From a virus: a stretch of 25,058 bases of DNA. Positions 3,603 through 24,046 of this stretch are shown here, one piece after another (the stretch's first letter is position 1; each line of letters begins with the position of its first letter). The notes under the pieces are model-generated. The model searched no databases and was not told the origin of the DNA. It worked only from the letters and a program-made list of their open reading frames with translations. The stretch spans positions 4,233-29,290 of IMG/VR virus record IMGVR_UViG_3300030333_004505; one strand, written 5' to 3'. A program made the position numbers and the translations under genes.

Positions 3603-4572
3603 CTACTAATTCCGTTAATCTGTCAATTTGGACTTGTTGTTCTTTTATACTTTCTATAAGAACTGCTATTATCTTTTCATAATCAAGAGTTAGGTATCTT
3701 TTCCCAGTCTTATCCATTAAAGGCATACTCTTTTCTCGTACAACTTCTGGAAGTATATCTTGAACTTCTTGAGCAATAAGACCTAAATCTTTTTGCCCTT
3801 CCCTACTTCCTTTCTTCCAGAGATATTCAACACCTCTAAGTCTCTTAACTTTTTCTAGCGCTAGGTCTATGGTCTTAATATTGCCCTTAACTCTCTTATC
3901 TGATATTGTTGATGAATAAGCAATAACATCTGCGTCAGCGTGGAAATCCCCACCATTAGCAAACAAGAACTCATTAGCATTATTTACCATTACCTTTATA
4001 CCTTGACCGGGGTCTGCTGTGTCGTGAAAGAAACCATCATCTGCACCATCAAACTGAATACCCGGAGCAGTATTTGAGCCACCATCAACAACTAATACGC
4101 CATCTACAGTAGTATTGTTAAATGTAACATTAGAAGTAGTCGCAACTGCTTGACCTATACTAAAGGTTGTACTACTTAAAGTAACTCCAGTACCGGCACT
4201 ATATGTAGTATTAGTATCAGTAGGAGTAGCCCAAGTACCATCTTTCTTTAGAAAAGTACTACCAGAACCACCACCAAGATTTGACAAAGCGGCGCCACTT
4301 GATAAGCTAAATGTTGTTGAGCTAAGGGTTAGTCCAGTCCCAGCGGAGTAAGTAGTATTTGTATCTGTGATATCACAATTAAATGTTGTACCACTTAAAG
4401 ACATACCAGTCCCTGCTGAATAAGTAGTATTAGTATCTGAAGGGGTGGCCCAAGTTCCATCCTTTCTCAAGAATGTAGAACCACTGCCACCCCCTAAGTT
4501 TGCTAATGCTACCCCAGAAGGGAAGTCCGCTGAAGGACTCGATTCGTGTAGTACCTTTTTCCACGAAGCCAT
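3586..4572 (-). CDS. tail fibre with C-terminal S74 intramolecular chaperone
   Basis: A 328-residue fibre. Residues 1-18 (MASWKKVLHESSPSADFP) are nearly identical to the start of the other fibre gene here, so both probably attach to the same virion site. A shaft follows with repeats: NTTYSAGTG three times (about 48, 72 and 121) and LGGGSGSTFL-[RK]-KDGTWATP twice (about 26 and 99). Residues 224-328 form a Peptidase_S74 domain: S224-D-K-R-V-K229, LGLIAQEVQDILPEVV (263-278), YLTLDYEKIIAVLIESIKE (293-311) and a coiled-coil tail. In this family the domain trimerises the fibre and cuts itself off before the serine. The start is supported by GGAG eight bases before ATG 4572. Confidence 0.88.
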   Translation of the reverse strand: MASWKKVLHESSPSADFPSGVALANLGGGSGSTFLRKDGTWATPSDTNTTYSAGTGMSLSGTTFNCDITDTNTTYSAGTGLTLSSTTFSLSSGAALSNLGGGSGSTFLKKDGTWATPTDTNTTYSAGTGVTLSSTTFSIGQAVATTSNVTFNNTTVDGVLVVDGGSNTAPGIQFDGADDGFFHDTADPGQGIKVMVNNANEFLFANGGDFHADADVIAYSSTISDKRVKGNIKTIDLALEKVKRLRGVEYLWKKGSREGQKDLGLIAQEVQDILPEVVREKSMPLMDKTGKRYLTLDYEKIIAVLIESIKEQQVQIDRLTELVDVVNK

Positions 4573-20581: not shown

Positions 20582-20598
20582 GGTTACACCTCGGCAAT

Positions 20599-20636
20599 AA
20601 AGGTTCGCCTTTCCCCTATATCTATAGGGTTTTATT
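20599..20636 (+). terminator. rho-independent terminator after the 115-residue gene
   Basis: CCCTATA-TC-TATAGGG (20614-20629) is a perfect inverted repeat followed by TTTTATT. Just before it AAAGG-TTCG-CCTTT (20599-20612) forms a UUCG-capped hairpin. The two begin 18 bases after the stop codon. Confidence 0.75.
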
Positions 20637-20642
20637 ACACGG

Positions 20643-20741
20643 AATGAAATTCAGCAACCAATAATTCCCTACAGGTGATAGCGTAGGTAGAATATTAATC
20701 AGGGTAGGATACCAAGATTTCTCAGGTTGTTGAGTTTCATT
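20643..20741 (+). ncRNA. RNA element closed by a 17-pair stem
   Basis: Bases 20643-20659 (AATGAAATTCAGCAACC) pair with 20725-20741 (GGTTGTTGAGTTTCATT) over all 17 positions, including two G-U pairs. G-U pairs rather than mismatches suggest selection on RNA. The enclosed 65 bases contain CCTAC/GTAGG and GGTA-gga-TACC local pairs. It lies between a terminator and the large RNA that follows; no ORF of note covers it. No family is recognised. Confidence 0.6.
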
Positions 20742-20779: not shown

Positions 20780-21237
20780 TGTATTATGTAGTCATCAGTG
20801 CTCACAGGCCAGTGAGTGATGTTGGCGTAGCATAGTCCTTGGGAGAACATCTCTTTGCCGAACAAACGGATGCCAAGGGCTCTCAATAGGTTGTAGTGAC
20901 CTAATATTATCGCTGAAATCAATGTGATAATATCTCGTAAAGAGTTGAGGGATACGCAGGGAACTAACAAAGTAGAGTTTGTTGGTCGTTACATCATAGT
21001 TGAGGAAAGTTCTCCTCTAGACTATAATGATAGCAATCCAAAGGTATAAGTTCAGGTAACTGAACAATGTCTTGGAGTGGTGTTGTGCGGTAATTCGCAA
21101 AGCCACTAGCAGTAATGCTACTATCAGATGTGCGTGAGTCGAAAGACCACAACGAAAGAACTTCCTGTTGTTGGGTAGGCACTATGAAACTGTGCTTCTA
21201 CAAGTCCAACTATGTGCATAATACATTATTTTTTTTT
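20780..21237 (+). ncRNA. large multi-branched structured RNA (about 450 nt)
   Basis: TGTATTATG-TAG (20780-20791) pairs with CTA-CATAATACA (21209-21225, with a four-base bulge), closing about 440 bases; TTATTTTTTTTT follows (21226-21237). Inside are many local helices: ATCA/TGAT with CTCAC/GTGAG (20794-20820); CCTTGG/CCAAGG (20837-20878) enclosing two hairpins; CTCTCAA/TTGAGGG (20880-20951) enclosing TAGGT/ACCTA and ATATTATC/GATAATAT; CTAACAAA/TTTGTTGG (20964-20985); ATAGT-GAGGA/TCCTC-ACTAT (20996-21025); GTTCAG-GTAA-CTGAAC (21050-21065); TAGCA-GTAA-TGCTA (21107-21120); GTG-a-GTC-GAAA-GAC-CAC (21134-21150); and GTTGG-GTAG-GCAC/GTGC-CTAC-CCAAC (21170-21210). Three loops are GNRA on this strand only. 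This is the style of large ornate RNAs such as ROOL or GOLLD, though identity with either is not claimed. No plus-strand gene fits here. Confidence 0.75.
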
Positions 21238-21468: not shown

Positions 21469-21474
21469 TTAAGT

Positions 21475-21663
21475 ATCAGGTAGTTAAGGTCGACCCTACT
21501 GAGTCCATATTCTAGTATTGTCTAGGCCAAGGTATCAGAGGTAAGCATCATCATCTACTAAAATGGAAGAGCACCAGTCGTGAGGCTGTCCCTCTAGAGT
21601 TCATCACTGCAAGAGGGCTGATGAAATAAAAGTGAATGTTAAGTTATGTCTTAACTACCTGAT
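21475..21663 (+). ncRNA. structured RNA closed by a perfect 14-pair stem, with alternative folds
   Basis: ATCAGGTAGTTAAG (21475-21488) and CTTAACTACCTGAT (21650-21663) are perfectly complementary and enclose 161 bases. Inside are CAGTC-GTGA-GGCTG (21575-21588, a GNRA loop on the plus strand), CCT-a-CTGA with TCAG-AGG near the 5' side, and two overlapping pairs: CCCTCT (21590-21595) with AGAGGG (21612-21617), and TTCATCA (21600-21606) with TGATGAA (21619-21625). The 3' closing arm can also pair locally: GTTAAG (21638-21643) with CTTAAC (21650-21655). The element ends 27 bases before the next start codon. It is either a switching leader or a processed small RNA. Confidence 0.65.
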
Positions 21664-21690
21664 TTAACCAAGAAAACAAGGAGGAATGTG

Positions 21691-22753: not shown

Positions 22754-22766
22754 GTATTGCTGGCTT

Positions 22767-22859
22767 GAGGGGGCGAGTTGACCTTGGAAAAGGCAACGGA
22801 TGACCGTCATCTACTAAAGGCCCAAATACGGGACACACAGTAGAAATGCTCGTCCTCTC
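22767..22859 (+). ncRNA. cloverleaf-like structured RNA, about 93 nt
   Basis: GAGGGGGCGAG (22767-22777) pairs with CTCGTCCTCTC (22849-22859) over 11 positions with two G-U pairs. Three arms lie inside: TTG-a-CCTT-GGAA-AAGG-CAA (22778-22796, a GNRA loop on this strand), GATGA-CCG-TCATC (22799-22811), and TACT...CCC-AAATAC-GGG...AGTA (22812-22842). The result is a compact four-way junction. It is not a tRNA: the closing stem is too long, there is no TpsiC-type arm and no anticodon loop of seven. A promoter candidate precedes it at the right distance. No known RNA family is recognised. Confidence 0.65.
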
Positions 22860-22878
22860 TCTTTGTTTAATAAAATTT

Positions 22879-23189: not shown

Positions 23190-23266
23190 TAGGGGGAATT
23201 GAAGCCAGTCAGATATAAAACCGTCTGCGTGCAGAGAATTCTCTAGAAAGCCGGACATTCCCCCTA
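23190..23266 (+). ncRNA. RNA element closed by a perfect 10-pair stem
   Basis: TAGGGGGAAT (23190-23199) and ATTCCCCCTA (23257-23266) are perfectly complementary and enclose 57 bases containing TCTG-CGTG-CAGA (23224-23235) and the palindrome AGAGAATTCTCT (23233-23244). The size is like that of a tRNA, but the stem is ten pairs and no D- or T-arm is visible. Either strand could be used; orientation follows the neighbours. Confidence 0.5.
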
Positions 23267-23289
23267 TTAGCAATTCAAGATTTAATAAT

Positions 23290-23482
23290 ATGAGTGTAAA
23301 CTGCATATCGAAGGAGAACCTTTTAAAGATGATGTGCACTGACCTAAGGTGATACTTACCCAAAGCGGTGAAGAGAAAAGAAGTTGTGAACTGCAAGCAA
23401 CTCAAAGTACCGAAGGACTGTGGATGGAAGCAGATGGGAGGCGTAGTGAAATCTAGATGTAGTAACTACGGTTTACACTCAT
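23290..23482 (+). ncRNA. structured RNA closed by a perfect 12-pair stem, directly before a gene
   Basis: ATGAGTGTAAAC (23290-23301) pairs with GTTTACACTCAT (23471-23482) and encloses 169 bases. Stacked just inside is TGCATAT/ATGTGCA (23302-23338). Further inside are CGGT/ACCG (23366-23412) enclosing AGTTG/CAACT (23382-23402), and GTAGT/ACTAC (23443-23469), which stacks next to the closing arm. The total length, about 193 bases, and the place just before a ribosome binding site match the element at 21475-21663, but the sequences are not alike. A long minus-strand frame crosses it, most likely by chance. Confidence 0.6.
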
Positions 23483-23500
23483 TAATTAAAGGAGGTCAAT

Positions 23501-23803: not shown

Positions 23804-24046
23804 ATGGCTAAAGTTTATGCGATATCTTTCCACTCAGGTGGTCAGGTACACGAACTGGAAGCAGATTCCCCCGCTGATATAGCGTCAGGCTGGGACTTAT
23901 CTCTGGAAGGTGTCGAAATTTTCGTTAACGAAGATAAGGCACAAGTAAGCACTGACCTTAGGGATGGTGATTATGTTTCCTTCCAAAGAGATAAAGTCAC
24001 ATCTGGCTCTGATTGCATCGTAGCGCTTGCGCTCGATAGTCAGTAG
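23804..24046 (+). CDS. small beta-grasp protein, ThiS/MoaD/ubiquitin-like candidate
   Basis: An 80-residue protein. The pattern is that of a compact beta-grasp fold: strand VYAISFH (4-10), strand VHELEAD (15-21), short helix SPADIASGW (22-30), then V37-EIFVNEDKAQVST, L52-RDGDYVSF (strand, turn, strand), and KVTSG (64-68). 'VN....V..D..L.DGD.V' before a KV-GG type end is typical of ThiS/MoaD-like and phage ubiquitin-like proteins. There is no terminal GG; SG at 67-68 is followed by a 12-residue tail (SDCIVALALDSQ). A conjugated form would therefore need trimming, or the protein may be non-conjugated. The next gene encodes an E2-like candidate. ATG 23804 has AAGGAG 11 bases upstream. Confidence 0.55.
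   Translation: MAKVYAISFHSGGQVHELEADSPADIASGWDLSLEGVEIFVNEDKAQVSTDLRDGDYVSFQRDKVTSGSDCIVALALDSQ

Follow-up and report, generated by a model that had tools for sequence, protein, structure and literature searches.

What lies at positions 20780-21237 (+) of the window, by which we mean the whole 25,058-nucleotide stretch analysed here (positions 4,233 to 29,290 of IMG/VR virus record IMGVR_UViG_3300030333_004505), and does it belong with the large ornate RNAs known from phages? The original prediction placed at this locus a large non-coding RNA of about 450 nt that might be ROOL or GOLLD, a divergent relative, or a new class.

Genomic context

The record that holds the window is 55,175 bases long. 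Its left arm carries genes for terminase, portal, major head protein and endolysin, and its right arm a series of small genes followed by a Sak4-like annealing protein and a primase/helicase. An island with long ORF-free stretches lies between these arms, and it is here that the RNA sits, ~3 kb from a gene encoding an ordinary large-subunit terminase. Directly 3' of the RNA and on its strand lies ORF 21271, which was found only in the window; at other loci different genes follow the RNA. A sigma-70-like promoter scan performed no better than shuffles. The nearest phages, L002 and L004 (terminases 98% and 96% identical), are represented by contigs that stop a little short of the RNA, at window positions 20598 and 20741.

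It is important to note that this RNA is not the only structured stretch in its surroundings. Upstream, window 20610-20738 holds a hairpin resembling a terminator, a conserved TTTTATTACACGGAA block that may be a phage promoter, and then a 14-bp stem (GAAATTCAGCAACC/GGTTGTTGAGTTTC) where relatives have a short hairpin; in L102 and L099 the RNA is preceded by a distinct RNA-like stretch of ~135 nt with GCGACAAUU/AGUUGUCGC as its closing stem, after which L102 has a T run. Downstream, window 21469-21675 is ORF-free with a long closing stem (UCAGGUAGUUAAG/CUUAACUACCUGA, z -2.35) and yielded no relative. A second conserved structured RNA of ~105 nt at window 22758-22866, closed by GAGGGGGCGAG/CUCGUCCUC and bearing a GGAAAA loop, is also present at L006:5655-5750(-) and matches no Rfam family. 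A third conserved RNA motif at window 23219-23300, GAAGCCAG...AUAAAACCG..UGCGUG...AAAGCCGGACAU, lies within a stem that L006 forms from different letters, and a ~200-nt ORF-free stretch at window 23287-23490 is closed by AUGAGUGUAAACUGC/GGUUUACACUCAU.

Fold and conservation of the RNA

The stretch 20780-21237 (+) has a minimum free energy of -149.6 kcal/mol (z -5.66), and none of 100 shuffles was as low. Since 458-nt windows across the same phage (mean z about -1.3, sd 1.9) reach -7.8 at 24001, fold energy alone is not decisive, and we dropped it as proof of an RNA. The comparison with a second phage, L006, is more informative. Its terminase is 91% identical, it was the only match in exact-motif scans of viral contigs, and it carries a syntenic RNA between the same two genes, whose own minimum-energy fold contains the same closing stem, P2, P3 and P12. 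Across 102 base pairs in 19 helix segments, 47 are identical between the two phages, nine differ in one partner and 46 in both partners, and 44 of the 46 double-changed pairs are canonical in both phages, in a hand alignment of the helices that favours pairing. Paired segments thus did not change without compensation. These same helices fix the strand as +, since their pairs include 21 G-U but not a single A-C. When translated, window and L006 show similarity in several frames, on both strands and essentially where the 3' end is conserved, which therefore reflects RNA conservation; we rejected a coding reading of the stretch, as the original prediction had also done. On comparative grounds, we regard it as virtually certain that 20780-21237 (+) is a conserved structured RNA.

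Fold, relatives and the comparison with L006 together delimit the RNA, from P1 to P1', at 20780-21225 (all parts are on the + strand). P1, the closing stem, pairs 20780-20790 with 21215-21225; it had been predicted as 9 bp (12 with a bulge), and its presence holds while its length becomes 11 bp, including one G-U. This stem is re-paired with other letters in L006 and closes differently in the relatives termed group X below. The P2 hairpin (20791-20826) presents the loop AGGCCA (20806-20811) with a self-complementary GGCC at 20807-20810, and is followed by P3 (20834-20881), an interrupted hairpin with the 5-nt bulge GAGAA, and by a P4 multibranch (20882-20949) of three hairpins, P4a, P4b and P4c, in which the 10-nt loop of P4b reads UGAAAUCAAU in the window and UAAAAUCAAU in L006. 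The 5' strand of P5 (CAGGGA, 20957-20962) makes a long-range pairing with UUCCUG at 21162-21167, enclosing the P6 hairpin (20963-20986, loop GUAGAG), the P7 region (20990-21030, with a GGAAAGUU-type loop common to group X), P8 (21041-21073), the P9 region (21076-21105, GUAAU loop), the P10 hairpin (21108-21121) and P11 (21133-21150). P11, CGUGA-GUC-GAAA-GAC-CAC, is the most conserved element of the class. The P12 hairpin (21170-21210) reads GUUGG-GUAG-GCAC-UAUGAAACU-GUGC-UU-CUAC-AAGU-CCAAC. Unpaired but conserved in the 3' core are an A-rich linker after P11 and the UA...ACU of the P12 loop. The fold thus holds more than the predicted dozen or so internal helices, and the three + strand GNRA tetraloops are as described: GUAA at 21056-21059 (P8) and 21113-21116 (P10), and GAAA at 21141-21144 (P11). 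The T9 tract directly after the RNA is likewise present (21229-21237), but is not common to L006 and so is not a defining part.

Relatives in an uncultured phage family

Built from the 3' 89 nt of window and L006, the covariance model R1 matches 15 further loci. Its first matches were L043, L056/L058, L063 and L025, with L020 a marginal one, and all lie in the same island and orientation. Its E-values, which are rough owing to a short calibration, are 4e-5 for L043, ~1e-5 to 0.02 for most other loci, and 0.1-0.4 for the marginal L020 and L113. A motif learned from the R1 loci occurs in 11 stretches of 2.9 million viral contigs, where we estimate that ~0.4 would be expected, and the new stretches were confirmed by R1; a looser scan added L112, L113 and L116, all matched by R1, L113 marginally. 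The distinct members number 17 (window, L006, L020, L025, L043, L058, L063, L098, L099, L102, L103, L106, L107, L108, L112, L113 and L116), leaving out the near-duplicates L022, L056 and L104. Among loose-pattern matches we rejected L090 and L092, which look coding, and L091, which R1 does not find, as well as the loosest-pattern matches L111, L114, L115 and L117-L120, which R1 does not match.

The 3' core gives a covariation of 0.574 over 14 loci and of 0.596 over 19 R1 matches, the latter including second hits in L113 and L116 that are both probably spurious. None of 500 shuffles was as high, and slid controls reached at most 0.118 (at most 0.099 against 0.596). The large ornate RNA of the original prediction is thus real, with covariation across a phage family.

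Group X (L025, L043 and L063) closes its RNA by GGUAGGU/ACCUACC and retains the helix order of the window; its alifold consensus contains 160 pairs, 38 with compensatory changes, and in P3-P4 all 155 of 155 cells are paired, with double changes at nine pairs. R2, a model of the 5' part, recovers nothing beyond the two sequences it was built from, window and L006. A model of the P3-P4 region trained on group X, L058 and L098 (R3), from which window and L006 were left out, nevertheless matches window 20833-20952 with an E-value of 0.0014 in 630 kb, the best non-training match and in the right place; the next, L103, is in register (E 0.06). R1 at the 3' end thus reaches all groups, while R3 at the 5' end, derived from group X, extends only weakly to groups W and Z. 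Judged by these models, the 3' core P8-P12 is the most conserved part, and the 5' half P2-P4 keeps its architecture while its sequence drifts. Because the distance from the start of P2 to P11 is 341-402 nt in all groups examined, the size of the RNA is nearly constant, and from P1 and P12 we infer a length of ~450-520 nt for each member.

All members with enough neighbouring genes on their contigs belong to one phage family and carry the RNA in the same place; for L108 and L112 the matched gene context is too small or absent. This family is uncultured and mostly marine, and within what could be searched the RNA is restricted to it. No match to the window RNA was found in INPHARED by blastn (the nearest INPHARED terminases are <30% identical among the matches listed), and a motif scan of 84,980 bacterial and archaeal genomes found no copy. 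Nor is there a copy in two MAG contigs with terminase relatives, binned as Euryarchaeota ARS1358 and Flavobacteriales, labels which are not host evidence; the ARS1358 contig (L109, NZBN01000005.1) carries a terminase of the phage family, 71% identical, and its binning may be wrong.

R1 run over whole records missed known members, L025, L058 and L063 among them, and negatives were instead taken from filters-off searches. On this basis, of 16 phages for which the entire island was read, about 7 carry the RNA and about 9 gave no match even in the filters-off searches; the RNA is therefore accessory. Long, highly paired ORF-free stretches occupy its place in other phages of the family (L036:1812-2472(-), L009:2250-2580(-) and L064:789-1109(-)) and gave no R1 match where searched; the island may therefore swap different structured RNAs.

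Comparison with Rfam

Scans with the 4,227 families of Rfam 15, at gathering and at low thresholds, match the RNA to none. At the gathering threshold, neither the window nor eight loci matched any family, and at E<=5 neither did the RNA region nor eight member loci drawn from all groups. The models for ROOL, GOLLD and OLE do not match the RNA region or the member loci, the group I and group II intron models gave no match, and the phi29 pRNA model has none in the window. By model, then, this is not ROOL, GOLLD, OLE, an intron or phi29 pRNA, and its class is in all likelihood absent from Rfam. Among the possibilities that the original prediction had listed, it is the new class that survives.

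A switching palindrome in the P2 loop

The P2 loop differs among members in its letters and, with one exception, contains a palindrome. It reads AGGCCA in window and L006, GGCC in L113 and L116, CUGAUCA in L025 and L063, UUGAUCAG in L043, GUUAGCUA in L058, CUAGCUAA in L112, GUGUACA in L103, UGUUAAC in L106, CCGUACA in L102 and L099, and CCUGCAA in L107, so that the palindromes switch among GGCC, GAUC, AGCU, GUAC, UGCA and UUAA; the exception is UUAGCG in L020/L022. A self-complementary tetranucleotide occurs in 10 of 11 distinct loops, compared with a mean of 3.8 when each loop's own letters are shuffled (P 9e-5), the loops having been delimited after being seen. For L025/L063, L043 and L020 our delimitation departs from the minimum-energy fold, being either broader or displaced, and in L025/L063 that fold uses part of the palindrome for pairing within the hairpin. 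The tetranucleotide occurs once only in the RNAs of window, L006, L043 and L058, and its self-complementarity is therefore usable only between copies.

A similar signature is found in OLE, where a hairpin loop palindrome switching among GGCC, GAUC and AGCU mediates a symmetric RNA-RNA contact; Kretsch et al. (PMC12286853) took the switch of OLE L9.3 from GGCC to GAUC/AGCU as support for an intermolecular kissing loop. OLE combines a symmetric kissing loop with a covarying palindrome, and P2 shows the sequence signature of such a loop. OLE is, however, a bacterial RNA, described in PMC9723947 as about 600 nt long and from extremophilic or anaerobic Gram-positives, and here we deal with phages and have no Rfam match. 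With this parallel, copies of the RNA probably pair with each other through the P2 loop, and the covarying palindrome leaves the earlier suggestion of possible multimers better motivated.

Possible function

We lean, without strong conviction, towards a trans-acting phage RNA of a new class, whose copies associate with one another through P2 and whose mode of action resembles that of the large ornate RNAs. The phage would make the ~450-nt RNA as a separate transcript acting in trans; the RNA would fold into one body closed by P1; copies would bind through the self-complementary P2 loop in a homotypic kissing loop; and the resulting homo-dimer or higher homo-oligomer may work during infection, perhaps in the lytic cycle, as OLE, ROOL and GOLLD do. 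By analogy with GOLLD and with ROOL, which forms an octameric cage of RNA only, a higher-order assembly can be proposed only tentatively. Rather doubtful, at this stage, is the further idea of an evolutionarily independent phage RNA family, with a length some two-thirds that of ROOL and an occurrence limited to a single uncultured marine phage family, that forms an RNA-only homo-oligomeric particle.

The main rival is a monomeric phage RNA that has a protein partner or serves as a decoy or sponge for a host factor (e.g. an RNase or an RNA-sensing defence), its P2 palindrome being incidental or binding a dimeric protein. Its accessory status, patchy distribution and fast evolution are what one would expect of host-interaction factors, and the conserved unpaired stretches of the 3' core (the A-rich linker and the P12 loop) could be a protein site. 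However, this account leaves unexplained why the P2 loop changes its letters and keeps its self-complementarity, and it offers no candidate partner, the adjoining downstream gene being found only in the window. We consider it unlikely.

That the RNA is a divergent GOLLD or ROOL, too distant for the Rfam models, is improbable. Like GOLLD it is phage-encoded, large and multi-helix, and like ROOL it is a phage RNA of elaborate fold with a kissing-loop signature and no known protein partner. We know of no counterpart in ROOL of the P11/P12 core motif. GOLLD has a conserved 3' region, a less conserved 5' region and self-interacting kissing loops (PMC12286853), and the conserved 3' and divergent 5' ends seen here (R1 against R2 and R3) are a shared property rather than proof of homology. 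GOLLD, however, is 800 nt or more and often lies near tRNA islands, and ROOL env-120 is 659 nt; the RNA here is smaller, the window has no tRNA, its relatives have a single tRNA-Met (in the pair L056/L058), and members of all groups remain without a match even at E<=5. The likenesses to GOLLD in 3'/5' pattern and to OLE in palindrome are a resemblance in possible working, not membership.

A role in packaging or other virion assembly, as for phi29 pRNA, a much smaller phage RNA that multimerises by loop pairing, is highly improbable: the terminase gene is close by and multimerisation is possible, but about half of the close relatives with the same terminase family do without the RNA, the terminase itself is unexceptional, and the phi29 model has no match. 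Least credible is a cis-acting leader or a ribozyme or intron of the downstream gene, for although ORF 21271 follows directly on the same strand, it was found only in the window, different genes follow elsewhere, and the intron models are unmatched.

Self-association through P2 thus remains the account that we prefer. Few large ornate RNAs have been described so far. A further phage class, compact and with a candidate self-pairing loop that covaries across lineages, makes a natural comparison set, and being smaller than ROOL and GOLLD it is also a convenient structural target. If its copies do not multimerise, the covarying palindrome needs another reason; if they do, RNA-only assemblies would have arisen repeatedly in phages.
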